28,492 nt of DNA from a virus. Where the stretch lies: positions 1 through 28,492 of the IMG/VR virus record IMGVR_UViG_3300017782_000144. The stretch is one strand, 5' to 3'. The notes below the pieces were generated by a model that worked only from the letters and a program-made list of their open reading frames with translations, made no database searches and was not told the origin of the DNA. A program made the position numbers and the translations under genes. Below, piece after piece: positions 5,560 to 28,492 of this stretch (positions are counted from its first letter, which is position 1; each line of letters opens with the position of its first letter).

Positions 5560-8500
5560 ATGGCAAAAATTTCAGAACTAGGTGCAATATCAGGCGCTAA
5601 TACCAGGTCAGAAGACTTATTGGTTATCGTTAACCTTGTTCAGGGTGACGACGGCACCAAAAATATTACAAGAAAAGAACTTGTACAGGCAATCCAGTAT
5701 GAGGAATTTGATCGTATAAACATTACTGGCGGAACTATTTCCGGCGTCGTAATGCGTGACTCGCGAATAGACAACGTAGTAATTGACAATTCAGATATCG
5801 AAGATACAACCTTTGTAAGAGGTAGTATTGATAATACTGACATTACAAATTCCACAGCCAATAATATTAGCATTACTCAATCTGACTTTATCAATGGTGA
5901 GATCTTTAATGGTACTGCAAATAATGTAACCATCACTCAATCCGAATTCCTAAACGGTACTGTAAATAACACAATTATTACAAGTTCAGAATTTAATGAT
6001 GGAACAATAGCAGATTCCACTGGTAATAATGTTATACTTACAAATTCAGAACTAAATGATTCTACAGCAAACAATGTTGTCATTGAAAATTCAGAGTTCA
6101 ATAACGGTACAGCCAATACTGTTGTTATGGTTAACTCAGAATTTAATGATGGTATAGTAAATAATTCAGTAATTGTTAATTCAGTAATTAATGATTCTAC
6201 TGGTAATAATGTTGTACTTACAAATTCAGAACTAAATGACTCTACTGGTAACAATAGTGTATTCACAAGTTCAGAGTTTAATCAGGGAACAATTAATGAT
6301 TCTGCCTTCCTAGATGGCACAGTTAATAATACAATTATTACTAATTCTGAATTCAACGATGGTACAGTTAATAACACAATTATTACCTCATCTGAATTTA
6401 ATGATGGTACTGGAAATAATGTAGTACTTACAAATTCAACCATTGACGATTCCTTATTTACAGATGGTACAATATCTAATACTGATTTCCAAGGTACAAT
6501 GCAAGATGTTGTAGCTACCGATATGACAATCAGAAGTTCATCTGCTGATGGACTCTCCTCAAATAATTCAAGCTTTGATAATGGTACAATGGCCGGGTCT
6601 GTATTCTCTGGTGGTACCATTGATAATTCTAAACTTGTTGACTTTGACATGGAACTCAATAACGAGTTCGAACCACCACTTGATGAAGAAAGTTACTTCG
6701 CAATTCGTAACGAAAAAACTGGTGATACTGAACAAATTAACTTTGCTCAACTCTATGATGAAGTTTCCAAAAAGACAGCCCAGGCACTTAAAGTTAATGT
6801 AGATGCTGCATCTGGTGATGATGCAAATCCAGGTACAATGTTACAACCTGTCAGAACATTGGAAAGAGCTTTTGAACTCTGTTTGGAAAAAGCAGGTGGA
6901 GATTTAAACAGAAACGCTATTAATAACGCGGTTCATATTTCTGTTGGTCCTGGAACATATTATACAAAAGGTAATCTTATGTTACCGGATGACTGTTCTT
7001 GTACTTCTACTGCTGGTCAGTATGCAACAGTTATTGAATTGCTTCCTGGATACGAAAACAATAACGGAATCTTAGTTGGTTCTGGTGGTTATGTTCAAGG
7101 ATTTGGTTATCAGAACTTTAAAGTTGATAACTTTGATTTCCCAGAAGGTGGATTCGCGATTGCTTATCGACCTGGTGCCAAACTATTACGTTCACCTTAC
7201 TTAAGAGATAGTACTCAGTTATCTAACTTCTTACGTCAAGATGTTGAACCACCTCTTAATCCTTATAACTCAAAGGGAACACTTGCTGATTTAGGCCGAC
7301 AATTCTATGTTGACCCATCTTATACTGGTACATTTGCTGTTGATGATGAAATTAAATTTAGTTCTGGTGCTGTAGGTTTTATCACTTATGTTGATAGTCT
7401 TGCAACCAATAATGAGATATATGTAAGAAACCTTAAAAACAATCAAGGATTTGCTGTTGGTGATACAATGACAGCAGAATCCGGTGGTGTTGCTGTTATA
7501 ACCGAAATCGGTATTGATGATTTCCCTAACAGACAGGTAGGCCGTGGTGGTGGTTGTGTACTCGCGGACAGAAGAGTACTAGATACTGATTCACTATATA
7601 CCTACGTATTATGTTTTGGTTTCACACCTCGTACTCAAAATGGTATAGGTTATGTTGCTAGAGACGGAGCTGGTGTTAACGGTATTGGTTCTCTATCAAT
7701 TTTTGTAAGATGTGCATTCTACGCCTTAAATGGTGGTCAGATGACATTGAACAACTCAGGTACTCAGTTCGGTGATATTTCAATGAGGGCGAAAGGTTCT
7801 ACAATCTTTATGCAACCTAGAAATACTACTGCTACCATTATCGGTAATACTGCATTCGCTGATACGATTGATACAAATGCTGATTCAATTATTGATGATA
7901 TGGTTGATTACCTATCTGCAAATACTGCACAAGGTGGCTTAGACTACACATTATATGATTCAGTTAAATGTGAACGCGACAGTGGTATTATTTTAGATGG
8001 TGTTGGATACGATATTGCATTAGACACTAACTACTGGTCCAGACTTGCTGGTATTTCATATCGTTCCCCAATAAGTTCTAAAGTTATAGGTGAACAGCTT
8101 GATGCAACAATAGGTGCAAACGAATATCTCCAAGGTAGAGTTGAAGCTCTATTTGGTGACTCTAATCCTGATATTGTTGAACGTGCAAATACCTCATTCC
8201 AAGAACTTTATAACGTTGTAGAGTATGGTGAAGAAAACATCAATCCTATTATCTGGAGAGATACAGGGAATCAAAACTATACTAACGCTAGAGAGTTATT
8301 ACAAGACAATAAAGAATTAATCCAAGATGAACTTATAGATTGGATTGAAAACAATGGCGAATTTTATGCTTATAATAGTAAATCTTGCCGAAGAGATGTA
8401 CAAGATTATATTTTACCAGCTGTCGAAAATGACATGTTACTGGACACAAACTATAATTCAGTTACAGCAGGACGCGCATATTATATGGCAACTGCAAAAA

Positions 8501-11500
8501 CAGTTTTGGAAAATCAAAACAATGAAACTGTTGCTGCATACAGAAGATTAAAAGATCAAACCAATGAACTTGTTGACGGTGATTCATATCTTGCTACACA
8601 AAGACTTGATGAAGGTTTTGATGAAATTTTATCTATCCTTGAAAATAAAGGAACACAGTTTACTCCACCAGCTGCCACTTATGACCCTTCAACCGGTTTA
8701 TCAGTTATCACACTAAGCACAAGTACAAAGTTTACACCAAGTACCGCTACTTATGACCCTGCTACAGGAATTATGGTGGCAACTATTGGAGCTCACGAAT
8801 TAACAACTGACGACCACATTTGGTTCAAACCAGGTGGAATGACATTCAGTTGTGATACAGGTTCTGGTGTACAAAATCATGCTGTACCTGAAGCTCATCA
8901 CCCATATTATAATACCCCTTGCCCAATTACAGCTGTAACTGAAACTACTGTTACGTTAAATGTTGGTAAAGGTGGTCCGACAGGACAACAGGCTCATACC
9001 TTTGTATCAGCTGTTAAAAATGCACTTGCTTCTGGACACGGTTTAGGAGTTGGTAGAAAAGTATTATTAAAAACTGGTGGTCTTATATTTACATGTGACA
9101 GAGATAATAATGTCGCAAAAACTGGATACCCAAGAGCTTCTGACCCAGCTGCTGGTACTCCAATAGATGTAATCGGTGCAAATGAAACTAAGATTACAGT
9201 TAATGTTGGTAAATCTGTACTGATAGACGAACATACATTTGTTGAGGCATTACCAAATTCGGTTTCAGTATTAGGTTCAGCACTAAGATTTAGTGATGAC
9301 GCCGGTATTGCTGCTGATAATATTAATGCTAGAAAACAATTACAAGCTAATAAAGAGTTTATACAAGAACATATGCTCGGTTATATTGACTATAACTTCT
9401 TCAGATATGATTCTGATAAGTGTCGTAGAGATGTAACGAAATATATTCTTCCTGCAGTCGAAAGAGATATATTGACAGGAACAAATTATAATGCAATCCA
9501 AACAGGTCTTGCTTATAGAAGTGGAACAACTCTAGCTGATAACGTAATTAATGACCAGTTGGTAGAAACTTCTGGCGCAATTACAGAATTAAAAACAAGA
9601 GTTAATCTCAATAATACAGAATCTGGTTTTACTGTAACAGATGCTACTTATGATCCTGCAACAGGACGATTTGAGGCCACAATCGGCGCTCATACAATGG
9701 CGGTAGGCGATTATATAAAATTTGCAGATGAAGGTATTACAATGAGTTGTGATATGGGAAGTGGTCAACAGAACCACACTTCACCACAAGCTCACCACCC
9801 TTATTATAGAAAACCTTGTCCAATTACAAGTGTAACTGATACGACTATTGTAATGAATGTTGGCGATGGCGGAACTGGCCAATACCCACATACATTTGTT
9901 TCAGCTGTTGCTAATGCAATTACTCCTGAAAAAGGTATCGGTTTAAGTTATACTCCAACAACTGCTGATTATGACCCAGTCACTGGTAAATTTACGGCTG
10001 AAATTGGACCACATACACTTCAACCAGGCGATATGTTAAAATTCACTGCTGGTGGTGTTACATTTAGTTGTGATACAGGAAGTGGTCCACAGAATGACTC
10101 TGTTCCAGCTGTTGGACATCCATATTATAACCACCCATGTCCTATTGAATCAGTAACAAGAACTTCAGTTTCAATGTTTGTTGGAACCGGTGGAACTAAT
10201 GCTCATACATTTGTATCTGCCTTAGATGATGCTCTAACTCACATGGTAAGTATTGACGATAATGCTTCTGGATTCAGAAGTAATGAATCATTCGATGAAA
10301 TACTTACAATCATGAATGACAGAAATAAGTTATACTCAACAACAAATGCTACTTATGACCCAGCTGGTGGTATGACAGAATTAACAATTGGCACGCATGA
10401 TTTCCAAATTGGAGACCAGATATTAATTGCAGCTGATAGTTTAACATTTACTTGTGCGACCGATGGTGACGCAACAGAACATACATACCCAACCACAACA
10501 ATAAGTACTTTCTCTCCGACAGACGCGACTTATGTACCATCTACTGGTGTATTTACAGCAACAATCGGAACTCATAAATTACAAATTGGTGATTTAGTAG
10601 AAATTGCTCCATACTCATTTGCATTTACTTGTGAAATGGACGACAATGCTACTGAACATCTAGCGCCTGAACCACATCACCCATTCTATAAAAAGAAGGT
10701 TGCTATAACAGGCATTACCAGTAATACAATCACAATGAATGTTGGTTCTGTTGTAAATGGTGGCGGAGTACACACATTTGTATCTGCACTACCTAACAGT
10801 ATTGAAGGTGAAAGACAACACCCTGCTTACAAGAAACCAGTTACGATTGCTTCAAAAACAGCAACAACGATTTCTGTTAATGTAGGACCTTCAACTGACA
10901 CATCAGTTCATACATATGTAAGTTCAACAGCTGACAATATTAAACCAGCTAAATATACATCTGCATACACACCAACAACTGCTACTTATGACCCTGCAAC
11001 TGGTGTCTTTGTTGCAACGATTGGTAATGGCCATAATCTTGTGGCTGGTGATTATGTAGAAATTAAACCTGAATCTATTGTATTCACTTGTGCTCTTGAT
11101 GGTAATGCTACAGAACATGCTGTACCTGAAGCTCATCACCCATTCTATAGAGTACCGGTAATGATTAGTAGTGTTACTGCTGATACAATTACAATGAACG
11201 TTGGTACTGGACCTGGTGGAGCTCACACATTTGTAAGTGCAAGTGTTGGTGCAATTGATTCTGATGCTCTTGTCTTTACGGATCCGGCTTCATATGTAAG
11301 TTACTTTACTCCAACAACTGCTACATTTGTACCGGCAACTGGCGACAGTGTCATTACTTTACCTGCAGGACATGGTTTAACAACAGATGATTATATTGAG
11401 TTCGCTCCATATTCATTCACATTTACTTGTGCACAAGATGGTGACGCAACAGAACATTCATATCCAAGAAAAGGTGACGTAAATTACAGAACACCTATGG

Positions 11501-14500
11501 CAATTACTGCTGTAAATGGTAATGATGTAACAGTTAACCTAGGTGCTTCAACTGGTGGTCTCCACACATTTGTAAGTGTTGAAAAGGATGCTGTATCTAA
11601 AGTCACTTATAATTCTCAAGGCCAATATGCTAGAGAACAATTACAGAAAAACAAAACATTCCTACAAGAGGAAGTTACATCTTACTTAGACAGCCAATAC
11701 TTTGTATTTAATGGCGAAAAGTGTAGCAGAGACACAGGCTTTATATTAGATGCAGTACGCAGAGATGTTGCAACTGGTTCTAATTATAATTCAGTCTTTA
11801 TGGGTCTAGGATATCGCATTGGAACTAAAGGTTCAAATGAGGTTATTACAAATCAATTAACAGAAACTGTAGGCGCAATTAACTACCTTAAAGGTCGTGT
11901 TGCTGCTGAGGCAAGTGTTACAGGAACTGCATTAACTCGTGCAAATGCTGCGTTTGATGAAATCGTTGACATTATGTCAAATGGTACTGCAAATGCTGAT
12001 GCTCTTGTTTACGGAACAGATGCAAGTGTAAGTGTTAATCACACTATAGGCTCAAATGCTTTAATTAATAATAGGGCATTTATTGTTGCTGAGGTTACAG
12101 CTTACATCGCTGACACATTCCCAACATTAACATATAATGTTGCAAGTTGTGAAAGAGATACAGGTTATCTTATAGATGCAATTGTTTGGGATTTAAGATT
12201 CGGTTCAAATACTGCTGCAATTAACTTTGCAAGACTATACTTTGAGAATGCAATTTCTACATTGCCAGAGGACCAAAAACTTCCAACAGCTAAGACTTGG
12301 GAACATATTGCAAATGTTGCGTATGATATCGTAAGAGATATAGCTGTTACTCCTACAACAGGAAATGCTGCATCACAAGATGTATCATTAACAGATGCTG
12401 GTGTTGAAGTTGGTGAGGCTGCAAGGGCAGGTATTAATGTTACTACTCAAATTATTAGAGATGATAACTTACAATCACTTCCTGCAATTAATGAAGGTAA
12501 TGTTGAAGCTGCAATGGCTGGTGCTGTTACTACCATCGATGGTATAACTGAAGGTTTACAATCAGGTGTCATTGACTTCCTTAAAGATGAGTATAATGGA
12601 TTACCTTATGCTGTTGAGACATGTAAACGTGATGTTGGTCTTATGGTTGATGCAGTATCTCGTGATATTGAATACGGTGGTAATGAGAATACATTAGAAG
12701 TGTTTGATTACTACTTCAGAAGATTCAATTCTCAATCAGCTGATTATGAACAACAGCGTTCAATCAACGTATTGCCACTTGAGGTAAAAGGACAGTTCAA
12801 AACACTATCTAATTACGACGATAACGCCAATGTTTCTGGTTTAAGAGAAGCAATTAATGTTCTTCCTTATGACCAACGTGGCCCAACAAGAGATGCATTT
12901 GCTCATTTAGCTGATGTCGCTGAAAAGGTTGTTAAAGAAGTTAATCATTCAACTAGTTTCAATAAATTCACTCCAACGAATGCTACTTATGATCCGGCAA
13001 CTGGTGTGTTCACTGCAACAATCGGTACTCACGACCTTGTAAAAGGTGACAGTGTTTGGTTGAAACCTGAAGGATTTACATTTAGCTGTGATATGGGTGG
13101 CGGTGCTGCTAACCATACTTCACCTCAAGCACATCATCCGTTCTATAACAAACCAGTTACAATTACTGAAACAACATCTACTGTTATTACAATGAATGTT
13201 GGTGGCGGTGGTTCTGGTCAATATCCACATACTTTTGTTTCAGCTGACGCTCAATCAATTAGTGAAGGACCATATCAAAATGTTGATGGAACAGCTGCTG
13301 ATGCTACAACAGGTACAACAGTTCATGATTTATTAGATCTTATTGCCAACCTGGTTGATGATACTAATATAGAAACTGCTCAATTACCAACATTGGTTAA
13401 GGCTTCATACGATCCAAATAGAACTCTTGCTAGAAAACAGCTACAAAGAAACAGAGACTTTATTATTGAAGAAGTTCAAGGTTATATTAAGGACAGATAT
13501 TATGTCTTTGATGGCGACAAATGTAAGGCTGACCTAGGATTTATCCTTGACGCAGTTAAAACTGATGTGCTAACAGGTTCTAATTATAATTCCATATACG
13601 CAGGACTTGCTTATAATATTGGAACAACTAATACAACTAGAGTATTAACTGAACAATTAACAGAAACAGTTTCTGGTATTAATTATGCTAAGAAACTTTG
13701 TATTGAAGCTGTAACTGACGGTAGTGCAAAATTAAAAGTTGAACAAAGTTTTGATGAAATCATAGATATTATGACTAATGGTAGAGGGGCTGCTGATGTA
13801 ATTAATTACACTGGAACTGCCTCAAATAATACTAGGATTAGTGGTAGATCTCAATTACAAAACAACAAGGCATTCTTACAGGCTGAAATAACAGCTTGGC
13901 TTGCTGCAAACAGACCTTCACATTCCTACGATGTAGCAAAATGTGAAAGAGATACAGGTTATATGATTGATGCAATATCATTTGATACTCAGCATCAAGG
14001 TAACTTTGCAACCATAAACTTTGCTAAATTGTATTTTGAAAATGCAATATTGGTTGGTTTACCTGCGGATCAAGTTGAACCGACAGTAGCTGCATATTTA
14101 CACTTAGGTAATTGTGCAAACCTTATTGTTCAAGATACAGATATTGCTGGATTAAAATCATCTGGTAATGCTGCATCCCAGGACTTTAGTGCTGCCTCTG
14201 CTGGTGCTCCTGTAGGTAATGAGGTTCGAGGATTATTTAATATTGTTGCTGATGCAATTGAAGCTGGAACAATGTTATTAAGTCCTCCAGTTGCTATGCC
14301 AACTCTTACTACATATTCTGCAGAAAATCAAGCTTCATTCGGTGAAATTGAAAATACTAAATCTACAGCTCAAAATGGTGTATTATCTCACCTTGCTAAA
14401 TACTTTGAGGTATTACCATATAGTGAAGAGAAGTGCAGAAGAGATACTGGCTACATTGTTGATGCCATATCACACGATATCCAATATGGTGGTAATGCTG

Positions 14501-16740
14501 CAACAGTACAAACAGCTGGTATGTATTTTGAAAATGCTGTAAATACTGGTTTACAAATTGAACAGAGAATGGGTTCAAGAGATGCATTCCTCCACATGGC
14601 AAAATTGGTCGAACATGTTGTAGGTGGTAAATCAATCACAACTACAATGTTCCCAAGAACTGGAAAATATTACACAGGTGATATAGTAACGAAATACGAA
14701 TATTGGAATGGATTACATTCTTATCAATCAACTGAAGCCCAGGATATGCAAGTACATGGTGCAAATCCTAGAACCTCAATTGCTGCAAGAAAACTTGCTG
14801 AGATTGTTGCTAATGCTGTTGATGATAATATTGAGGTCGGTACAACAATTCCAGAAATGATTGATGTTGACCAAACATGGCAAGGTCAAAACTATGTGGT
14901 TGCTAAAGAAATAATCGAAAAAGGTAAAGTACATATATCTGAAAAGATAATTAGTTACCTTTCAAATGTACATAATGGATTATCATTTAGAGATGCCAAG
15001 TGTAGACGTGATATCGGTTATCTTATTGATGCTGTTTCACACGATGTTCAATATGGAACAAACTTTGCTACAAGACAATCTGCAGGCATTTATTTTGAAA
15101 ATGGAATATCTGTTCTACCGATTGACACAAGAGCTCAAACTGCAACAATTTACGACTACCTAGGTACCGTGATGAGTAATGTGGTTCAAGAAATTGATTC
15201 TGCAAATACTACATATTCAATATTCCCACAAGATACAAATGGTACTGCTGCAACTGCTACTGAAGGTGCAAGAGTTGATGAATTAATGGGTTACGTTGAA
15301 AATGTCATTAGAGCTAATGATACTGATGAGTTACCTGCAATTGAGGCTCCAACAACTACTTGGGTCCCTGCTCCACTTGTTAGTGCTAAAACTAAGATTA
15401 TGGATAATTCAGAAGAACTTGCTACTGATATAACAGACTTTATTAACTCTAGCTTTACTGTTCTTGATTATGACAGAGTAAAATGTAGACGAGATACTGA
15501 ATACTTAATTGATGCATTTAGTTTCGATATGAACTTTGGTGGTAACACTGCTTCAAGATGGAACGCAGATTTCTACTTCTGGAATTCAGTTTACAGATTG
15601 CCTGAAGATCAGAGAATACCAACTGCTAAATCATACCGCCATTTAGGTAGAATTGTTAAAGATATAGTAATCGGTGAATATCCAGGTCAGAAGGTCCTTG
15701 GTGGAATTGCTTCAGAAGTTGAGGCTACTAAGGTTCAAGGTCTTGCAGATATGTTCTATAAAACACAACTGTATGACGACACGAAATATTTACAGGTTAA
15801 AACAGAACCAACATACACAGATCCTAAATTTAAGGATGCTTCAGATATCATTGGTCAAAATAGAATTGCATTAAGTAAAGATACTGTGAGATATGTTGGT
15901 GCAACTTATAAATATATAGATGACGCTTTAACCAGAAGAGATGCAAGAAACCTTCTAACAGCTGTCCAAAATGACTTTAAATATGAAAATGTAAATGTTC
16001 CGGCACCAAGTTATCAAACAAATGGTAACTCAAATGCTACAATGACATATACTACTTCATTCTTTAACTTTGATGGACGACATGTATTCCCGGTATTTAA
16101 TGCACAAAGAGCTGAATTGAAATACCAGGGAAGTATACAAGGACCTGTTTCAAATGGTGGCCTTGCAAGTATAACTGGTATGAAACCAAATCATGCTTAT
16201 ATTGTTGCTGATGATATGACAGTAAGTCATTACACTGGAACTATATACTACTGGGATGGTAGTGCTTGGCAATTAGATGGACCAAATAATACTGACCTAT
16301 TGGATGCATTTACTGGGGCTTGGGATAGAATTAAAACAAATCTTGTTAATAATTACTCTCCAAACTCAGAACATAGCTTGATGATTGAAGGTTTATTTAA
16401 TGATTGTATTAAAGGCAATGTATTAAGACCTAGTACTCTGGTATTCGGTTCATTGGTTGAGTCAATTGCTCACCAGTTTAATGGTGCTTCGGCAGGTGTT
16501 AACAGAAATGCATTACCTCTGAACTTTAGAAACTTAGGTTCTGCAATATCGGCTATCGCTTCTGTCCTAAATGAGGATGGTGGTAGAATTAGATGGTCGG
16601 GTGCTGACGAATTGAATAACCAATATTTTGCAAGAGGATTGAAAATTAATGGTCGAACAGGAAGAATTGAAGGACGACCATTTACATCATCTGTAAGAAA
16701 ACTTGCAAGAAGAGCCTCAAATAGTAGAGCTAATATTTAA
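5560..16740 (+). CDS. Giant 3,726-residue modular virion/fibre protein
   Basis: The start is supported by AAAGGAAAG at 5547-5555 before the ATG. Modules in order: an N-terminal segment (MAKISELGAISGANTRSEDL) like those of marine phage fibre proteins; a pentapeptide-like array at about residues 55-360; a right-handed beta-helix/pectate-lyase-like region at about 410-770, with SGDDANPGT, PVRTLERAF and VGPGTYY followed by NGIGYVARDGAG; then two interleaved repeat families to about residue 3,480. One is a helical repeat with a Cys-x-Arg-Asp core (11 copies plus one degenerate). The other is a beta cassette with TYDPATG and HTFVSA (about nine copies plus fragments). The C-terminus is Gly/Asn-rich and ends in a basic tail (RKLARRASNSRANI). 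No signal peptide, membrane segment, S74 chaperone or catalytic motif is recognised. It is probably a tail-attached fibre or adhesin. The family is seen in cyanophage-like genomes as large structural proteins of unknown function. Confidence 0.85.
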   Translation: MAKISELGAISGANTRSEDLLVIVNLVQGDDGTKNITRKELVQAIQYEEFDRINITGGTISGVVMRDSRIDNVVIDNSDIEDTTFVRGSIDNTDITNSTANNISITQSDFINGEIFNGTANNVTITQSEFLNGTVNNTIITSSEFNDGTIADSTGNNVILTNSELNDSTANNVVIENSEFNNGTANTVVMVNSEFNDGIVNNSVIVNSVINDSTGNNVVLTNSELNDSTGNNSVFTSSEFNQGTINDSAFLDGTVNNTIITNSEFNDGTVNNTIITSSEFNDGTGNNVVLTNSTIDDSLFTDGTISNTDFQGTMQDVVATDMTIRSSSADGLSSNNSSFDNGTMAGSVFSGGTIDNSKLVDFDMELNNEFEPPLDEESYFAIRNEKTGDTEQINFAQLYDEVSKKTAQALKVNVDAASGDDANPGTMLQPVRTLERAFELCLEKAGGDLNRNAINNAVHISVGPGTYYTKGNLMLPDDCSCTSTAGQYATVIELLPGYENNNGILVGSGGYVQGFGYQNFKVDNFDFPEGGFAIAYRPGAKLLRSPYLRDSTQLSNFLRQDVEPPLNPYNSKGTLADLGRQFYVDPSYTGTFAVDDEIKFSSGAVGFITYVDSLATNNEIYVRNLKNNQGFAVGDTMTAESGGVAVITEIGIDDFPNRQVGRGGGCVLADRRVLDTDSLYTYVLCFGFTPRTQNGIGYVARDGAGVNGIGSLSIFVRCAFYALNGGQMTLNNSGTQFGDISMRAKGSTIFMQPRNTTATIIGNTAFADTIDTNADSIIDDMVDYLSANTAQGGLDYTLYDSVKCERDSGIILDGVGYDIALDTNYWSRLAGISYRSPISSKVIGEQLDATIGANEYLQGRVEALFGDSNPDIVERANTSFQELYNVVEYGEENINPIIWRDTGNQNYTNARELLQDNKELIQDELIDWIENNGEFYAYNSKSCRRDVQDYILPAVENDMLLDTNYNSVTAGRAYYMATAKTVLENQNNETVAAYRRLKDQTNELVDGDSYLATQRLDEGFDEILSILENKGTQFTPPAATYDPSTGLSVITLSTSTKFTPSTATYDPATGIMVATIGAHELTTDDHIWFKPGGMTFSCDTGSGVQNHAVPEAHHPYYNTPCPITAVTETTVTLNVGKGGPTGQQAHTFVSAVKNALASGHGLGVGRKVLLKTGGLIFTCDRDNNVAKTGYPRASDPAAGTPIDVIGANETKITVNVGKSVLIDEHTFVEALPNSVSVLGSALRFSDDAGIAADNINARKQLQANKEFIQEHMLGYIDYNFFRYDSDKCRRDVTKYILPAVERDILTGTNYNAIQTGLAYRSGTTLADNVINDQLVETSGAITELKTRVNLNNTESGFTVTDATYDPATGRFEATIGAHTMAVGDYIKFADEGITMSCDMGSGQQNHTSPQAHHPYYRKPCPITSVTDTTIVMNVGDGGTGQYPHTFVSAVANAITPEKGIGLSYTPTTADYDPVTGKFTAEIGPHTLQPGDMLKFTAGGVTFSCDTGSGPQNDSVPAVGHPYYNHPCPIESVTRTSVSMFVGTGGTNAHTFVSALDDALTHMVSIDDNASGFRSNESFDEILTIMNDRNKLYSTTNATYDPAGGMTELTIGTHDFQIGDQILIAADSLTFTCATDGDATEHTYPTTTISTFSPTDATYVPSTGVFTATIGTHKLQIGDLVEIAPYSFAFTCEMDDNATEHLAPEPHHPFYKKKVAITGITSNTITMNVGSVVNGGGVHTFVSALPNSIEGERQHPAYKKPVTIASKTATTISVNVGPSTDTSVHTYVSSTADNIKPAKYTSAYTPTTATYDPATGVFVATIGNGHNLVAGDYVEIKPESIVFTCALDGNATEHAVPEAHHPFYRVPVMISSVTADTITMNVGTGPGGAHTFVSASVGAIDSDALVFTDPASYVSYFTPTTATFVPATGDSVITLPAGHGLTTDDYIEFAPYSFTFTCAQDGDATEHSYPRKGDVNYRTPMAITAVNGNDVTVNLGASTGGLHTFVSVEKDAVSKVTYNSQGQYAREQLQKNKTFLQEEVTSYLDSQYFVFNGEKCSRDTGFILDAVRRDVATGSNYNSVFMGLGYRIGTKGSNEVITNQLTETVGAINYLKGRVAAEASVTGTALTRANAAFDEIVDIMSNGTANADALVYGTDASVSVNHTIGSNALINNRAFIVAEVTAYIADTFPTLTYNVASCERDTGYLIDAIVWDLRFGSNTAAINFARLYFENAISTLPEDQKLPTAKTWEHIANVAYDIVRDIAVTPTTGNAASQDVSLTDAGVEVGEAARAGINVTTQIIRDDNLQSLPAINEGNVEAAMAGAVTTIDGITEGLQSGVIDFLKDEYNGLPYAVETCKRDVGLMVDAVSRDIEYGGNENTLEVFDYYFRRFNSQSADYEQQRSINVLPLEVKGQFKTLSNYDDNANVSGLREAINVLPYDQRGPTRDAFAHLADVAEKVVKEVNHSTSFNKFTPTNATYDPATGVFTATIGTHDLVKGDSVWLKPEGFTFSCDMGGGAANHTSPQAHHPFYNKPVTITETTSTVITMNVGGGGSGQYPHTFVSADAQSISEGPYQNVDGTAADATTGTTVHDLLDLIANLVDDTNIETAQLPTLVKASYDPNRTLARKQLQRNRDFIIEEVQGYIKDRYYVFDGDKCKADLGFILDAVKTDVLTGSNYNSIYAGLAYNIGTTNTTRVLTEQLTETVSGINYAKKLCIEAVTDGSAKLKVEQSFDEIIDIMTNGRGAADVINYTGTASNNTRISGRSQLQNNKAFLQAEITAWLAANRPSHSYDVAKCERDTGYMIDAISFDTQHQGNFATINFAKLYFENAILVGLPADQVEPTVAAYLHLGNCANLIVQDTDIAGLKSSGNAASQDFSAASAGAPVGNEVRGLFNIVADAIEAGTMLLSPPVAMPTLTTYSAENQASFGEIENTKSTAQNGVLSHLAKYFEVLPYSEEKCRRDTGYIVDAISHDIQYGGNAATVQTAGMYFENAVNTGLQIEQRMGSRDAFLHMAKLVEHVVGGKSITTTMFPRTGKYYTGDIVTKYEYWNGLHSYQSTEAQDMQVHGANPRTSIAARKLAEIVANAVDDNIEVGTTIPEMIDVDQTWQGQNYVVAKEIIEKGKVHISEKIISYLSNVHNGLSFRDAKCRRDIGYLIDAVSHDVQYGTNFATRQSAGIYFENGISVLPIDTRAQTATIYDYLGTVMSNVVQEIDSANTTYSIFPQDTNGTAATATEGARVDELMGYVENVIRANDTDELPAIEAPTTTWVPAPLVSAKTKIMDNSEELATDITDFINSSFTVLDYDRVKCRRDTEYLIDAFSFDMNFGGNTASRWNADFYFWNSVYRLPEDQRIPTAKSYRHLGRIVKDIVIGEYPGQKVLGGIASEVEATKVQGLADMFYKTQLYDDTKYLQVKTEPTYTDPKFKDASDIIGQNRIALSKDTVRYVGATYKYIDDALTRRDARNLLTAVQNDFKYENVNVPAPSYQTNGNSNATMTYTTSFFNFDGRHVFPVFNAQRAELKYQGSIQGPVSNGGLASITGMKPNHAYIVADDMTVSHYTGTIYYWDGSAWQLDGPNNTDLLDAFTGAWDRIKTNLVNNYSPNSEHSLMIEGLFNDCIKGNVLRPSTLVFGSLVESIAHQFNGASAGVNRNALPLNFRNLGSAISAIASVLNEDGGRIRWSGADELNNQYFARGLKINGRTGRIEGRPFTSSVRKLARRASNSRANI
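5920..6459 (+). repeat. Pentapeptide-like array, 45-base units
   Basis: Twelve consecutive units follow the plan NN-x-V-I/L-x-NSEF/L-NDGT/ST-x. Most are exactly 15 residues (45 bases), one is 10 (6295-6324) and one is 20 (5965-6024). The variants are multiples of five, so the underlying period is a pentapeptide. Flanking degenerate units extend it to roughly 5725-6645. It probably folds as a solenoid beta-helix. Confidence 0.8.
6790..7870 (+). other. Beta-helix/pectate-lyase-like domain of the giant protein
   Basis: Residues about 411-480 contain DAASGDDANPGT, a hydrophobic ladder with TLERAFELC, and ISVGPGTYYTKG, the usual entry of a right-handed parallel beta-helix in phage fibres (DUF1565-like). 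NGIGYVARDGAG and LSIFVRCAFYALNGG at residues 694-730 continue the coils. No catalytic residues were recognised, so a structural or binding role is more likely than lyase activity. Confidence 0.6.
8659..11595 (+). repeat. TYDPATG...HTFVSA beta-cassette array (main block)
   Basis: Cassettes of about 98 residues begin FTPT-x-ATYDPATG, contain an FTC/FSC strand, a His-containing loop (often AHHPFY), a MNVG strand, and end HTFVSA. Starts: a fragment at 8659; full copies at 8731, 9628, 9949, 10510, 10966 and 11305; a copy lacking its N-terminal part at about 9028; a copy cut short at 10333; and an orphan C-terminal half at about 10807-10947. Helical repeat material with a Cys-Arg-Arg-Asp unit interrupts the block near 9300-9600. 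Confidence 0.8.
12967..13260 (+). repeat. Isolated TYDPATG...HTFVSA cassette
   Basis: This is a single full copy of the beta cassette, placed between the helical repeats with Cys at residues 2355 and 2655. It starts FTPTNATYDPATG and ends HTFVSADAQSI, and closely resembles the copy at 9628. Confidence 0.8.
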
Positions 16741-17236: not shown

Positions 17237-20200
17237 ATGTCAAGTAGATTTGGAACCCTTTCAGGTAAGAACCTTGTTATCGGTCACGGTATTCCGCAGA
17301 CGTTTCCTATTCAGTTGGACCCAGCTCCGTTTGAAGGTGCTTTGGTTTATGCCGATAACGGAGAATTAAGATATTCCGACGGTACAAACTGGCTCACAAC
17401 TGGAACAGGCCCACAAGGTCTCCAAGGTACAACTGGTTCCCAGGGAACACAAGGTCTCCAAGGTGATTATGGACCTGGTTTTACAATTATTGGTGCTGTG
17501 CCAGATGTCAATGTCGATCCACCAAATGACGAACAACTTACTCTTAATAATGCCTTTCCTGCAGCAGTTGTGGGCGATGGTGTTATTGATAATACAGATG
17601 ATGAGTTATGGATTTATGATGGTGCGACTTGGGTAAATATTGGTTCATTTAGAGGTGTTCAAGGTTTTACTGGTATACAAGGTACTCAAGGTGTTCAAGG
17701 AACAATTGGTAACGAAGGTATCCAGGGCGAAAGAGGTTTTAGAGGTTTCCAAGGAGAAGCTGGCCCACAAGGTACTCAAGGTGTACAGGGTGATTTAGGT
17801 ATACAAGGTTTACAAGGCCGAAGAGGACCACAAGGTGTTCAAGGCGTACAGGGTGATTTAGGTATACAAGGTATCCAAGGCTTACAAGGTATTCAAGGAC
17901 CTCAAGCATTCCAGGGTGTTCAAGGTACAGACGGTATTCAAGGTTTACAAGGTTATAACGGTGATGATGCTGGTCATGTTGTAGAGTTTAGAATTGACGA
18001 GGCTATTGCTGAATCAGATCCTGGTGTAGGTAATTTAATTCTTAACAGCTCGAATAGTCCTACAGATGATTATTCAACTGTTACTAAAATGTGGATTGAT
18101 GATGAAGCATTTTACAGTGTAAACTTAGAAGGTTTATACACACTTATTTCTCAGTCGACTGGTGCCAACAGAGGATTTATGAAAATCACTCTACGTGGTG
18201 GCCCAGACCATTACATGATTTTCTCAATCCAAGATGCTGTTGACCAAACAGGTTATTGGGAATTTGATTTAACATTTGTATCAGGTACTGGCCAACGTGG
18301 CGACTTTATTTTAGAAAATACTCCTAGCCCAGGCGTAACTACAACATTACCAGTATTGGTTGCATTTAGTTTATCTGGTGATAAAGGTATTCAGGGTGTT
18401 CAAGGCACAACTGGTATCCAAGGTGTTCAAGGACCACAAGGTTTACAAGGACTTCAGGGACCACAAGGGCCGCAAGGAACAACAGGTATCCAAGGTGAAA
18501 CTGGAACTCAGGGTGTTCAAGGTTTACAAGGCTTACAAGGCGGAAGAGGACCACAAGGTGTTCAGGGTATGCAAGGGCTTCAAGGTTTCCGCGGAGACTT
18601 TGGTGGGCTTACATATGATTATACCTATAATACCACTACAGCAAATACAGCTCCAAGTGCTGGTAATTTAAACTTTGATAATACTTCCTTTGCTGGTGCA
18701 ACCGAATTATACATTGCCGATAGAGATGATGGTAATATTAATGTTATGGATGGCATTATGGGTGAGCTTGATAATGTCGTTGGTGGCATTAAAGGGTACT
18801 TTAAACTTATAGATGCTAGTAATTTATATAACCAAGCAACATTTAGAATTGACGGTGTTGATAATAGATCTGACCATTGGGTAGCTGATGTAGTACAAAT
18901 TAATGGTAGTTCATCAATGACTGATGCTCTTGATGTTCGTATTTCTTTTGTTAGAAATGGCGACCAAGGTATTCAGGGCGTTCAAGGTGTACAAGGGGTC
19001 CAAGGTGATTTTGGTATCCAAGGAACACAAGGACTTCAAGGCGGAACTGGTGTTCAAGGTGTGCAAGGCATGCAGGGAAACCAGGGTATTCAGGGTGAAT
19101 CTATACAAGGTACTCAGGGTGTTCAAGGAACAACTGGTATCCAAGGTGTTCAAGGTCTACAAGGAAGTTCAGGTGCAACCGGTTCTCAGGGTATTCAAGG
19201 AATAACTGGTATTCAAGGTGATGTAGGTATTCAAGGTATCCAAGGTCATGTCGGCCAATATGGTGGTTTAACTTGGATATGGAACTTTGATGATAACACA
19301 ATTGGTGGTACTGACCCAGGCACAAATAATTTTAAATTTAATAATTCAAATCCACAACTCGCAACATTAATTACTCTCGATGATGTTCCTTTTGACCAAT
19401 ACAACCAAGAGATTGATGATTTCCTTGACTTTATTGACAGTCAACCTGGAGCAGTAAAAGGTTATCTAAAAATACAAGAAGGTAATTATGACGGTGGTGC
19501 CGGCCCAGCTGGACATCACTGGTTGGTTTATGAAATTACGAATTTCACTTGGAACGGTGCTTCACAAACTTATGGTTATTTTGATGTCAACTTTGTTGAC
19601 GGTACATCAGATGATTGGGATGCCGATGTTGGTACACCACACGGACCAGAAACATTAATTACATTTATTCCAAGAGGACCTTCTGGTATTCAAGGTGCTC
19701 AGGGAACTCAAGGTCTACAAGGTGTTCAAGGTAGGACTGGTGCTGGTACACAGGGTGTTCAAGGTCTACAAGGTAATTTCGGTATCCAAGGTGCTGAAGG
19801 TTCATTTGGTGGTATAACATTTGACTATACCTGGAAGACAGATACAGTTAACAATGACCCATCACCTGGTTACTTAAAACTTAATAATTCAACATATTCA
19901 AGTGCTACCGCATTATATATTGACGACAGAGATGATAACTTTGTTCTTATCGAACCATTTTTAAGAACAGTTGACGATTCAACTACTCCTATTAAAGGTC
20001 ATTTTAAAATTACCAAAAAATCTCAGCCAGAGGTTTTCCAAATCTTTACAATTTCTGCTCTTGCAGAATTAACAGGTTATTTCAATATTACTTGTGCCTT
20101 TGTAAGTGGTAACGGAACATTTGCTGCAGATGAAGATATTACAATTACATTTGCCAGAACTGGTGATGTTGGTGCTGATGGTGCCGCTGGTGCTCAGGGT

Positions 20201-22141
20201 ATTCAAGGTTTACAAGGCTTTGATGGTATCCAAGGTTTACAAGGTACTGATGGTACTGGTGCTCAAGGAACAACTGGTGCAACTGGTGCTCAAGGTTTAC
20301 AAGGTATCCAAGGGGAAACTGGTGGTTTAGGACTTCAAGGAACACAGGGTCTACAAGGTGCTGATGGTTCTCAGGGTGCTGGAGGCTTGCAAGGTTCTGA
20401 TGGTGTAGGTACTCAAGGTTTACAAGGTTTACAGGGTGGTCAAGGAACACAAGGAATCGGTGGTGTAGGTTCTGATGGATTCCAAGGTACACAAGGTATT
20501 CAGGGTGCTGATGGTGGCGAAGGTCCTCAAGGTTTGCAGGGTGCCGATGGTCTTCCTGGTCAACCAGGAGGTGCTGGTTCTCAAGGTATTCAAGGTTCTT
20601 TCGGACCACAGGGTGTCCAAGGTTTACAAGGTAATGATGGTGCTGGTGGTGCTGGTTCTCAAGGTCTACAAGGCTTTAGAGGTAATCAGGGTATACAGGG
20701 TGCTGACGGCGAAGGTTCTGATGGTATTCAAGGACCAGAAGGTCCTCAAGGTATTCAGGGTACTGATGGTTCTGCCGGTGGTGGTACACAGGGTATTCAA
20801 GGTCTACAAGGTTTCCAAGGATTCCAGGGTGGCCTAGGTATTGGTGGTGAAGGTGCTCAGGGTGCTTTCGGACCTCAAGGTATTCAAGGTGTTCAAGGTG
20901 GTGCCGGACCAGGTACTCAAGGTTTCCAAGGTATCCAAGGTGACTTGGGTGTTCAAGGTTTCCAAGGTATTGCTGGTGCTGGTGGTGGAGATGGTATCCA
21001 GGGTGCTGCAGGTGCTCAGGGTGGATTAGGTTTCCAAGGTCCTGGTGGCCCTTCAGGTACATTAGGAACTCAGGGTCCTGCTGGACCGCAGGGTGAGCAA
21101 GGATTAGACGGAACTGGACCACAGGGTATTCAAGGACCTCAAGGTACGCCTGGTGTTGGTGGTTCCGGACCTCAAGGTATTCAAGGTAGTGATGGTCCAA
21201 CAGGCCCAGGTGGTGGAGATGGTATCCAAGGACTTATCGGTTATCAAGGAACTTCTGGTAGTCCAGGTACGGTTGGTGACACAGGTCTCCAAGGTGTTCA
21301 AGGAACTCAAGGTCCTGCTGGATCCGGAAATGCTACTCAAATATCAACAAATACAATTCATGGTTCTTCATTGGATTCCAGTCCAATGTTTATTACATTT
21401 GTACAAGATAGCTCAACAGCTAGACCATTATATGCTACAACTTCTCCAAACCCAGGTGGTCAAGAGAACTTCTACTATACCAATAATATTGATGAATTAA
21501 ATTTAGAGAATATTACAATTGGTGGTTCAGCTACACTTAATGGTTCAACTATTACATCATGGCCATCAGGCGGTGGTGGTTCACAGAGTGTATTCGACAA
21601 GATTGCTGTATCTGGTCAAACGACTATTGCTGCCGATAATACGGCTGATACATTAACATTTGTAGCTGGAACAAACGTTACAATTACTACTGACGCCACA
21701 ACTGATAGTGTTACTATTAATTCTACTGCTTCCGGCGGTGGTGGTGGTCTTGCTAATGTTGTTGAAGATACTACTCCTCAGTTAGGTGGTAACTTAGATC
21801 TTAATAGTAGGTTTATAACTGGCACAGGTGGTATAAGCTTTACTGGTGATTGTGATGCAACCAACTTTAATTCAACATCTGATGAGTCACTTAAAACAAA
21901 TGTGGCAACCATTGAAAACGCACTTGATAAAGTTAATAACATGAGAGGTGTTAATTTTAACTGGGTCGAAAATAGCCAACCTGGTACTGGTGTAATTGCA
22001 CAAGAAATTGAAAAAGTACTACCTGAAGTTGTTATGGAAAATGACGAAGGTATAAAACAGGTTCAATATGGTAATATAATCGGTACATTAATTGAGGCAA
22101 TCAAAGAACTTAAAACAGAAATTGAAGAATTAAAAAAATAA
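17237..22141 (+). CDS. Collagen-like fibre protein with globular inserts and S74 chaperone
   Basis: This is a 1,634-residue protein. The ATG follows AGGAGA by 8 bases. After a short N-terminal head (about residues 1-54) come six blocks of Gly-X-Y triplets, mostly Gly-(Ile/Val/Leu)-Gln, separated by four related globular modules of about 117-136 residues. The last block is the longest (20162 to about 21330). Then follow a Ser/Gly-rich linker, a segment with VEDTTPQLGGNLDLNS common in phage fibres, and an S74 chaperone (residues 1548-1634) with Ser1548 and Lys1553 in SDESLK. Collagen-like triplets in phage form triple-helical shafts; S74 domains trimerise fibres and cut themselves off, so the mature protein should have about 1,547 residues. 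It is probably a long, flexible, trimeric fibre. The Gln-rich Y position replaces the hydroxyproline of animal collagen. Confidence 0.9.
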   Translation: MSSRFGTLSGKNLVIGHGIPQTFPIQLDPAPFEGALVYADNGELRYSDGTNWLTTGTGPQGLQGTTGSQGTQGLQGDYGPGFTIIGAVPDVNVDPPNDEQLTLNNAFPAAVVGDGVIDNTDDELWIYDGATWVNIGSFRGVQGFTGIQGTQGVQGTIGNEGIQGERGFRGFQGEAGPQGTQGVQGDLGIQGLQGRRGPQGVQGVQGDLGIQGIQGLQGIQGPQAFQGVQGTDGIQGLQGYNGDDAGHVVEFRIDEAIAESDPGVGNLILNSSNSPTDDYSTVTKMWIDDEAFYSVNLEGLYTLISQSTGANRGFMKITLRGGPDHYMIFSIQDAVDQTGYWEFDLTFVSGTGQRGDFILENTPSPGVTTTLPVLVAFSLSGDKGIQGVQGTTGIQGVQGPQGLQGLQGPQGPQGTTGIQGETGTQGVQGLQGLQGGRGPQGVQGMQGLQGFRGDFGGLTYDYTYNTTTANTAPSAGNLNFDNTSFAGATELYIADRDDGNINVMDGIMGELDNVVGGIKGYFKLIDASNLYNQATFRIDGVDNRSDHWVADVVQINGSSSMTDALDVRISFVRNGDQGIQGVQGVQGVQGDFGIQGTQGLQGGTGVQGVQGMQGNQGIQGESIQGTQGVQGTTGIQGVQGLQGSSGATGSQGIQGITGIQGDVGIQGIQGHVGQYGGLTWIWNFDDNTIGGTDPGTNNFKFNNSNPQLATLITLDDVPFDQYNQEIDDFLDFIDSQPGAVKGYLKIQEGNYDGGAGPAGHHWLVYEITNFTWNGASQTYGYFDVNFVDGTSDDWDADVGTPHGPETLITFIPRGPSGIQGAQGTQGLQGVQGRTGAGTQGVQGLQGNFGIQGAEGSFGGITFDYTWKTDTVNNDPSPGYLKLNNSTYSSATALYIDDRDDNFVLIEPFLRTVDDSTTPIKGHFKITKKSQPEVFQIFTISALAELTGYFNITCAFVSGNGTFAADEDITITFARTGDVGADGAAGAQGIQGLQGFDGIQGLQGTDGTGAQGTTGATGAQGLQGIQGETGGLGLQGTQGLQGADGSQGAGGLQGSDGVGTQGLQGLQGGQGTQGIGGVGSDGFQGTQGIQGADGGEGPQGLQGADGLPGQPGGAGSQGIQGSFGPQGVQGLQGNDGAGGAGSQGLQGFRGNQGIQGADGEGSDGIQGPEGPQGIQGTDGSAGGGTQGIQGLQGFQGFQGGLGIGGEGAQGAFGPQGIQGVQGGAGPGTQGFQGIQGDLGVQGFQGIAGAGGGDGIQGAAGAQGGLGFQGPGGPSGTLGTQGPAGPQGEQGLDGTGPQGIQGPQGTPGVGGSGPQGIQGSDGPTGPGGGDGIQGLIGYQGTSGSPGTVGDTGLQGVQGTQGPAGSGNATQISTNTIHGSSLDSSPMFITFVQDSSTARPLYATTSPNPGGQENFYYTNNIDELNLENITIGGSATLNGSTITSWPSGGGGSQSVFDKIAVSGQTTIAADNTADTLTFVAGTNVTITTDATTDSVTINSTASGGGGGLANVVEDTTPQLGGNLDLNSRFITGTGGISFTGDCDATNFNSTSDESLKTNVATIENALDKVNNMRGVNFNWVENSQPGTGVIAQEIEKVLPEVVMENDEGIKQVQYGNIIGTLIEAIKELKTEIEELKK
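17402..21330 (+). repeat. Six Gly-X-Gln collagen-like blocks (9-base period)
   Basis: Blocks lie at about 17402-17482, 17654-17974, 18377-18606, 18959-19267, 19676-19811 and 20162-21330. The DNA repeats GGT-NNN-CAA-like 9-mers with synonymous variation. Breaks in the triplet frame include Ala224 replacing Gly (GCA at 17906), GESIQG near 19094 and GAGTQG near 19739. Confidence 0.92.
17975..20161 (+). repeat. Four paralogous globular modules between collagen blocks
   Basis: Modules lie at about 17975-18376, 18606-18958, 19268-19675 and 19812-20161. Shared features: an aromatic opening strand (GGLTYDYTY, GGLTWIWNF, GGITFDYTW), a DPSPGYLKLNN-like turn, a Thr/Ala-(Leu/Met)-x-IDD strand, a G(Y/H)(F/L)KI strand, and a closing strand ending in (A/F)R-x-GD just before the next Gly triplet. 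The first is the most divergent. They look like small beta-sandwiches; ligand binding is possible but unproven. Confidence 0.75.
21878..22138 (+). other. S74 self-cleaving chaperone domain of the collagen-like fibre
   Basis: This covers residues 1548-1634. Ser1548 (codon at 21878) and Lys1553 (codon at 21893) have the same spacing as in the 402-residue fibre. AQEIEKVLPEVV is identical in both domains. The C-terminal helix is IEAIKELKTEIEELKK. Confidence 0.88.
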
Positions 22142-26476: not shown

Positions 26477-26510
26477 CTGGCCTACATAGGCGTGAGGAAA
26501 GGACATACAT

Positions 26511-28492
26511 ATGTCGACATTGATTAAGCTAAGACGAAGTGCCGTATCTGGACGCGTCCCGACTACAGCTCAATTAGAGCTGGGCGAATTAGCGATTAAT
26601 ACAAATGACGGTAAAATCTTTATTAAACAAGATGAACCTTCAGTCACACCAAATTTAAGCTTTACGATTGCTGCCGATGTCGCAGATGCAAATACTGCTG
26701 GCGATTGGGCTATTTCAGGCGATGATAGGTCAGGCTCAATTAGTGGCAATGATATTGATATTGCATTATATACTGGTGATACAATTACCATCAATAATGC
26801 TGGTTCAGCTGGACACCCTTTATACATAAAAACTGCTCAAGGTACTGGAACTGGTGACCAGGTCGCTGGGGCTTCAGGCCAAGGAACTTCTACTGTTCAG
26901 TGGACACCGAGTACTCCTGGCACATATTATTACCAATGTGCTAACCATGCCGGCATGGTGGGTACAATTACTGTAACTGCTTTACCCAGAACAGAATCTA
27001 TTGTCGAGTTTAGTGCAGACCCACTTGACCTTCTAGAATTAATTAAAACTGTTGATGGTGCGAACAGTGGACTTGATGCAGATTTACTTGATGGATTTGA
27101 AGGGTCACAATATTTAAGATCTGACGTTGATGATACATTCGATGCCAGTCTAGTTATTACTGGGGACCTAACAGTTTCTGGTAATACAACATATGTTAAT
27201 ACTGAAACAATTCAGTTATCAGATAACATTATTACTCTTAACGCGAACCATGTTGGTGCTCCAACACAGGATGCTGGACTTGAGGTTGAGCGTGGCGATG
27301 AGAGTAATGTAATAATACAATGGAACGAAACAAACGATTATTGGGAAATTGCTTCTGGTGGTGTTGTTGGGCGTATCCTTACTACTGGTGATGAAGGCTC
27401 TGGAAATGGAATAGATGCTGATACACTTGATGGCCAGGAAGGAACATATTATTTAGATTACAATAATTTTACAAATGTACCAGCTGCAAGCCTAGATTTT
27501 TCTCTAACTGGTAAAGTTACCGGAACAGCATTCTCTAATACTGGAGTAATGACAGTTGTAACAGAACTTGCAAATACCGCTGTTACTCCTGGTACCTATG
27601 GTTCAAGTTCTCAAATACCTGTATTTACAGTTGATGAAGATGGTAGACTTACAGCTGCTAGCAATACTGCTGTTGCTGGTGTAGATTCAACTGATTGGTA
27701 TTCTGCAAATAATACTTTTGCTATTGAAACAGGTGACGGAAGTACCTTTAATACTATTATATCAGACTTTGATTTAAATGTCAACTTTGGTGCTGGTATT
27801 GATGTAACAGGTAATGTCACAGTTACCGGTACGGTCGACGGCCGTGATGTTGCTGCAGATGGTTCTAAACTTGATGGGATAGAATCAGGCGCGACCGGCG
27901 ACCAAACCGCCTCGGAAATACTTACATTAGTTAAAACAGTTGATGGAAATACCTCCGGTTTAGATTCAGATTTATTAGATGGCCAGGAAGGAACCTATTA
28001 TTTAGATTATAATAATTTTACAAATGTTCCACCAGCCACACTTGATTTAACACTCAATGGTAAAGTAACAGGTAACGCCTTCAGTAATACTGGCGTAATG
28101 ACTCTTACTACCGAACTTGCAAATACTGCTGTTACTGCCGGCACTTATGGTAGCTCATCACAAATTCCAATCTTTACAGTTGATGAAGATGGCCGACTTA
28201 CTGCTGCAAGTAATACAGCTGTTGCTGGTGTCGAGGATTTTGATTGGTATAATGCCAATAATACTTTACAGCTAGAAACCGGTGATGGTAGTACATATAA
28301 TGTAGTAATAGACACATTCTCTGATATTATTATTAATGGTAATGTATCTATTTCTGGAACAATTGATGGCCGAGACATCTCGATTGATGGTGCAAAACTT
28401 GATGGAATAGAGGCTGGCTCTACTGGCGACATGACAGCTGCAGAAATACTTGCAGAATTAATTACGGTTGATGGAACAACATCAGGATTAGA
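26511..28492 (+). CDS. Tail fibre protein with cupredoxin-like domain (3' partial)
   Basis: 660 codons are visible and the frame is open at the window end. The ATG follows GAGGAAAGGA (26494-26503). The N-terminus (LIKLRRSAVSGRVPTTAQLELGELAIN, split here as LIKLRRSAVSG and RVPTTAQLELGELAIN) is the standard opening of many phage fibres. Residues about 45-160 form a cupredoxin-like beta domain with His102, Cys143, His146 and Met149. Then comes a fibre shaft: LLDGFEGSQYLRSD, a segment with LSDNIITLN, and a tandem repeat of about 183 residues beginning LDGQEGTYYLDYNN. It is probably a distal or side fibre. No C-terminal receptor or chaperone domain is visible because the gene is cut by the window. 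Confidence 0.82.
   Translation, partial: MSTLIKLRRSAVSGRVPTTAQLELGELAINTNDGKIFIKQDEPSVTPNLSFTIAADVADANTAGDWAISGDDRSGSISGNDIDIALYTGDTITINNAGSAGHPLYIKTAQGTGTGDQVAGASGQGTSTVQWTPSTPGTYYYQCANHAGMVGTITVTALPRTESIVEFSADPLDLLELIKTVDGANSGLDADLLDGFEGSQYLRSDVDDTFDASLVITGDLTVSGNTTYVNTETIQLSDNIITLNANHVGAPTQDAGLEVERGDESNVIIQWNETNDYWEIASGGVVGRILTTGDEGSGNGIDADTLDGQEGTYYLDYNNFTNVPAASLDFSLTGKVTGTAFSNTGVMTVVTELANTAVTPGTYGSSSQIPVFTVDEDGRLTAASNTAVAGVDSTDWYSANNTFAIETGDGSTFNTIISDFDLNVNFGAGIDVTGNVTVTGTVDGRDVAADGSKLDGIESGATGDQTASEILTLVKTVDGNTSGLDSDLLDGQEGTYYLDYNNFTNVPPATLDLTLNGKVTGNAFSNTGVMTLTTELANTAVTAGTYGSSSQIPIFTVDEDGRLTAASNTAVAGVEDFDWYNANNTLQLETGDGSTYNVVIDTFSDIIINGNVSISGTIDGRDISIDGAKLDGIEAGSTGDMTAAEILAELITVDGTTSGL
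26640..26985 (+). other. Cupredoxin-like (type-1 copper) domain in fibre
   Basis: Segments GDTITINN, GHPLYIKT and TYYYQCANHAGMVGTITV follow the plastocyanin/amicyanin C-terminal plan. The ligand set is His102 (codon 26814), Cys143 (26937), His146 (26946) and Met149 (26955). The Cys-x2-His-x2-Met spacing is that of amicyanin. All four ligand positions are intact. Confidence 0.7.
27426..28492 (+). repeat. Tandem fibre-shaft repeat, 549-base period
   Basis: Two successive units, the second cut by the window end. GATGGCCAG starts at 27429 and 27978. Both units contain TYYLDYNNFTNVP, GKVTG, NTAVT, YGSSSQIP, TVDEDGRLTAASNTAVAG and LDGIE. Divergence is spread evenly, with conserved motifs. Confidence 0.85.

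Follow-up and report, generated by a model that had tools for sequence, protein, structure and literature searches.

A cupredoxin domain with a predicted type-1 copper site between the cap and the shaft of a viral tail fibre

Sequence comparison and structure prediction identify residues 44-160 of a viral tail fibre, with high confidence, as a predicted cupredoxin with an intact type-1 copper site. The site is supported by homology, by the predicted fold and by the four ligands, which are all present in the fibre and are conserved jointly among the viral copies. The best explanation of the domain, held here with moderate confidence, is that it would serve as a metal-clamped, mainly structural module on the exterior of the fibre and baseplate. 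The window, by which is meant the whole stretch of DNA analysed, is a 28,492-base virus fragment, and the fibre ORF is still open at the 3′ end of the record. The features of the fibre region are as follows.

26495..26502, plus strand: Shine-Dalgarno-like AGGAAAGG, 8 nt upstream of the ATG (sequence)
26511..28490, plus strand: fibre ORF, 660 codons, incomplete at the 3′ end of the window (PHROG tail-fibre families; phrog_32829, E 1.4e-66)
26511..26639, plus strand: N-terminal cap, 43 aa, resembling the N-terminus of the T4-type long-tail-fibre distal subunit (tblastn)
26640..26990, plus strand: cupredoxin domain, residues 44-160 (PF00127, PDB profile search, AlphaFold2, Foldseek, VIA-align)
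26814..26816, plus strand: His102, predicted first copper ligand, followed by Pro103 (sequence, ligand-masked profile)
26937..26939, plus strand: Cys143, predicted thiolate ligand and sole Cys of the ORF (sequence, ligand-masked profile)
26946..26948, plus strand: His146, predicted second His ligand (sequence, ligand-masked profile)
26955..26957, plus strand: Met149, predicted axial ligand (sequence, ligand-masked profile)
26991..28490, plus strand: beta-rich repetitive fibre shaft, running past the end of the window (sequence; PHROG tail-fibre matches)

The cupredoxin domain sits between a T4-gp37-like N-terminal cap and a long tail fibre shaft, and the ORF that encodes all three is preceded by a good Shine-Dalgarno sequence. 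A gp37-type cap is present: its tblastn matches (571 records at E≤0.01) include entries from T4-like phages, T6 and RB6 among them, that are annotated 'long tail fiber distal subunit', and its residues 1-41 are 46-54% identical to the annotated distal subunits of T4-like phages. The PHROG tail-fibre matches of the ORF lie at residues 181-572. A sequence-only reading had placed a beta-rich insert with a copper site near the N-terminus of a fibre, at 26640-26985; the position after a 43-residue gp37-like cap agrees with this, the proposed boundaries lie within two codons of the domain limits, and translation of the ORF puts His102, Cys143, His146 and Met149 at the residues that had been named.

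The first protein of the window (1-4113, plus strand) is nearest to those of the T4-like Sinorhizobium phages phiM12, phiM7 and phiN3 (32% over its full length) and the virus is therefore probably a T4-like myovirus, as far as sequence similarity indicates. Two further large proteins are encoded in the window. A 3,726-aa structural protein (5560-16740, plus strand) contains, at residues 1096-2560, at least seven copies of a repeat with a set Cys and His pattern, F[ST]C(x)n-NH/EH-x2-P-x3-HHP[YF]Y ... NVG ... HTFV, which may be another metal or disulfide motif; from residue 2197 it also repeats, many times over, segments resembling KC[RK]RD(T/I)GYLIDA, four by a narrow pattern and more by eye. 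Inspection by eye of a 1,634-aa protein (17237-22141, plus strand) found long collagen-like GxQGxQG repeats with beta-rich inserts and, at its end, a tail resembling the S74-type intramolecular chaperone.

Membership of the cupredoxin family was supported by profile searches. Scored alone, the domain passed the cut-off of PF00127 Copper-bind (23.9 bits against 21.2, E 5.6e-5), while within the whole 660-aa protein the score was 20.6, slightly below that cut-off; the same family matched 34 of 38 diverse relatives at E≤0.1. When a profile built from the relatives was compared with the PDB, the matches were plastocyanins, amicyanins, rusticyanins, pseudoazurins and nitrite reductases, with a best E of 1.3e-8, and in the alignments shown the four ligands of the domain line up with the His, Cys, His and Met of plastocyanin. 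The AlphaFold2 model of the domain is nine-stranded (pLDDT 91.5, pTM 0.86), and among the Foldseek matches to the PDB that were listed all were cupredoxins. Since the whole-model TM-scores of these matches were only 0.4-0.57, the relationship of the domain to cupredoxins of solved structure is remote. In VIA-align the N-terminal domain of 2dv6 superposed on the model over 98 residues with a Z of 10.7. Compared with viral models, the TM-score reached 0.84, and a Prochlorococcus phage protein ranked first. Taken together, the predicted model and its structural matches support the cupredoxin beta-sandwich that had been proposed from the sequence.

Among the 660 residues available there are one Cys (143) and three His (102, 146 and 247), and the type-1 ligands His, Cys, His and Met occur in order, aligned with those of known cupredoxins. 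The pattern H-x(35-45)-C-x2-H-x2-M occurs once in the six frames of the window. A chance His-Cys-His-Met arrangement in an unrelated beta-rich insert could find some room in the modest Pfam score of the single sequence, but the profile search, the model, the structural match and the recurrence of the domain concur in ruling it out, shuffled window proteins gave 0.0005 chance matches per proteome, and the probability left to such a false positive is vanishingly small.

Comparison with characterised families places the domain close to plastocyanin and amicyanin without assigning it to either. It shares with plastocyanin (PF00127 / TIGR02656; best PDB profile match 1b3i) the fold and the ligand order His...Cys-x-x-His...Met. 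However, its C-x2-H-x2-M loop is two residues shorter, it has Pro where plastocyanin has Asn, it fails the TIGR02656 equivalog cut-off (25.5 bits against 87.85) and it is a domain of a fibre, whereas plastocyanin is a free luminal electron carrier. The loop formed by C143, H146 and M149 has a spacing identical to that of amicyanin (TIGR02657; PDB profile match E 6.7e-7), and in this respect the earlier description of the site as amicyanin-type holds; the domain is nevertheless not an amicyanin as such, as it reached 22.6 bits against an equivalog cut-off of 110.2, lacks the methylamine dehydrogenase context and is marginally closer to plastocyanin. The best structural matches were to cupredoxin domains fused to copper nitrite reductases, such as 2dv6, and to rusticyanin (Z of about 9-10), and a C-x2-H-x2-M loop is also found in the C-terminal domain of 6hbe, but these proteins are redox enzymes or carriers and have no virion context.

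Retention of the ligands was counted in three ways. First, 18 records of cyanophages and marine viruses yielded 25 copies aligned at E≤0.01, every one of them with His, Cys, His and Met. A profile with the four ligand columns masked found 67 distinct viral copies, 60 of which have all four ligands, in a set where, as in the ligand-free count that follows, some or many of the IMG/VR loci had been recruited by patterns that include Cys or His and Met. The remaining seven comprise one copy that ends before the Met and six that keep none or one of the ligands. Under this profile the ligand columns rank 5th, 6th, 7th and 9th in conservation. In the third count, a DNA pattern for PGTYYYQ, which has no ligand inside, gave 48 distinct stretches that were sorted by eye into 30 with C-x2-H-x2-M, two with C-x4-H-x2-M, 11 unrelated proteins and five apparent site-less relatives; Cys, His and Met are kept in the 32 relatives with either loop, two of them having a Cys-His loop longer by two residues. 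The rows of alignment A1 had been selected for all four ligands, and ligand invariance there was not counted as evidence. His102 and Cys143, whose free loss among homologues would have spoken against a copper site, are thus not freely lost.

A few copies that have lost the whole site persist (L028, L076 and L129), and those in L076 and L129 share a chain with an intact copy. Since the fold is retained in such copies although the site is gone, not every copy requires copper. They also lend some support to the idea that the cupredoxin fold is one more Ig-like decoration domain in a virion without bound copper, as does the use of many beta-sandwich domains by fibres. Against this scaffold role, the ligand positions rank with the best conserved of the domain even under a profile in which their columns are masked, and the ligands are lost together; a metal site would be expected to be kept or lost as a unit in this way. 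The pattern fits selection for metal binding beyond a mere scaffold, so far as sequences can indicate it, and a scaffold without copper is the least probable of the functional alternatives considered here.

The residue that follows the first His was Pro in 59 of the 60 distinct intact viral copies and Thr in one. Asn, which occupies this position in the classical plastocyanin and azurin site, although it is not a strictly defining feature of that site, is absent from these intact viral copies, whereas the plastocyanins aligned here show His-Asn. This Asn hydrogen-bonds the Cys thiolate. In rusticyanin, a high-potential protein, Ser follows the first His. With His-Pro in place of His-Asn, the site may be tuned differently or may bind another metal, and by analogy a shifted potential or spectrum is a reasonable expectation. 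A second, divergent cupredoxin-like domain with the motif YYWCHxHTGQG was seen in large structural proteins (L016, L017, L025, L029, L030, L052 and L053). Its axial position holds Gln instead of Met, reminiscent of stellacyanin with its axial Gln, and the place of the first ligand is taken by His or Met; some members are without the first His in the alignment.

The domain is real and widespread among the viral sequences searched, and the recurrence in other marine phages that had been suggested earlier was found on a large scale. Relatives were present in 53 fetched IMG/VR loci, and 281 of 50,697 phage records matched at E≤0.01, of which by name 207 are Synechococcus, 48 'Cyanophage', 22 Prochlorococcus, three marine virus and one other. 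In T4-like cyanophages the domain makes up the C-terminal 100 residues of the gp9 'baseplate wedge tail fiber connector' (phrog_677), with the four ligands intact; there the N-terminus is a PF07880 domain, matching T4 gp9 and gp10 in sequence, in place of the gp37-like cap. Other carriers have it inside or at the end of fibres and large structural proteins, and in P-HM1, P-HM2 and P-SSM2 one protein contains it twice. The viral families are present in PHROGs (phrog_677, 9158 and 27200), where the domain goes unnamed.

Cellular relatives were sought in 84,980 species genomes with a single protein as the query, since alignment A1 had no stretch of 7-10 columns conserved enough, and this search, which misses distant cellular relatives, gave 14 loci, mostly from marine Flavobacteriaceae and other Bacteroidota. 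Within the genomes of one family (drawn around G001), 11 of 149 matched at E≤1e-10. The Bacteroidota proteins belong to the same domain family as the fibre domain, with HPF[YV]IK, GTYYYQC and C-x2-H-x2-M, but are cellular: several, 125-150 residues long, consist of this domain alone plus a signal peptide or lipobox (judged by eye), and in others it is the C-terminal part of a large surface protein. A scaffold-only role does not apply to these copies, since the domain stands almost alone in secreted or lipobox proteins, and the existence of stand-alone bacterial copies points to metal binding as the property of the domain that is kept. In a tree built from 117 columns, too short to root the family or to give a direction of transfer, the bacterial copies fall inside the range of the viral copies and the gp9 copies form a clade separate from the fibre type (99/97). 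One contig binned as a Euryarchaeota MAG (L148) encodes a multi-domain protein of 1,236 aa, and the cupredoxin of this protein clusters with viral copies; the contig is probably viral sequence in a MAG.

Among the genes neighbouring the Bacteroidota copies no constant copper or redox partner was found. The neighbours include a GTPase pair, a succinate-dehydrogenase-type flavoprotein and a beta-lactamase-family protein, and in single cases a Fasciclin protein (L151), a DsbD-like protein (L142), and DoxX and flavodoxin-like proteins (L147). This bears on a redox role, in which the site would transfer single electrons, or neutralise superoxide or a different oxidant, on the virion surface or at the envelope of the host during attachment. 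Retention of the full Cys-His-His-Met set, typical of electron-transfer cupredoxins, would suit such a role, and the hosts of most cultured carriers are cyanobacteria, which employ plastocyanin in their redox chains. However, neither the window nor the fibre has a partner domain or redox enzyme next to the domain, the Bacteroidota lipoproteins carry it without a constant redox neighbour, and its copies occur in fibres and connectors of very different build, so that a redox role appears unlikely.

Metal ions in tail fibres have precedents in T4 gp37 and in the HxH iron sites of marine phages (PMC11705849), where octahedral Fe is held at the tip of a trimeric shaft; the predicted type-1 copper site of the fibre domain, by contrast, would lie within a single chain near the cap. 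Iron in the tails and fibres of marine phages has been proposed as the basis of a Trojan horse hypothesis (PMC11705849). A loaded copper domain could by similar reasoning act as a lure, recognised by, or competing for, a copper-acquisition receptor of the host. The domain is on the exterior adsorption apparatus and its carriers are overwhelmingly marine, in keeping with such a lure and with the grounds on which iron in phage fibres was proposed (PMC11705849). In gp9 and in the fibre of the window, however, it is baseplate-proximal, away from the receptor-binding tip, and there is no known receptor; we consider a lure quite unlikely.

The preferred reading remains that of a metal-clamped structural module. 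Judged from the sequences and the predicted model, copper is probably present in the virion and, given copper binding, a mainly structural, exterior role is somewhat favoured. The cytoplasm contains little free copper; the fibre would be made there in the apo form and loaded with copper during or after lysis, and each domain would hold one copper ion in the virion. By linking the C-terminal Cys-His-Met loop to the His of a neighbouring strand, the metal may produce a stiff, protease-resistant beta-sandwich. Such a domain could have been reused as an exposed spacer or weak adhesion module, both at the joint of fibre and baseplate, where it would be positioned at the gp9 C-terminus and the fibre N-terminus, and within fibres.

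The open-access literature covered yielded no account of the domain in a phage fibre, virion or baseplate; in the cyanophage papers examined, plastocyanin is the product of a separate petE gene and copper goes unmentioned. The fold is already known and metal-bearing fibres are a known idea (PMC11705849), and a cupredoxin in fibres appears to be new. A bolder proposal would make marine T4-like virions copper proteins, with several to dozens of type-1 copper ions per particle, bound at His-Pro sites on baseplate connectors and fibres and used in infection through envelope redox chemistry or copper-uptake recognition; we advance this tentatively, as a speculative and rather doubtful extension. 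The occurrence of one domain in phage and in marine Bacteroidota surface proteins suggests exchange between viral and cellular surface proteins. Existing phage cultures would allow a direct test of the copper claim. Should the domain bind copper, a redox-active metal would be displayed on the virion exterior of many uncultured marine viruses and of a large fraction of the cultured marine cyanophages, with a bearing on phage stability, on attachment and on the copper of seawater, as has been argued for iron in phage tails.
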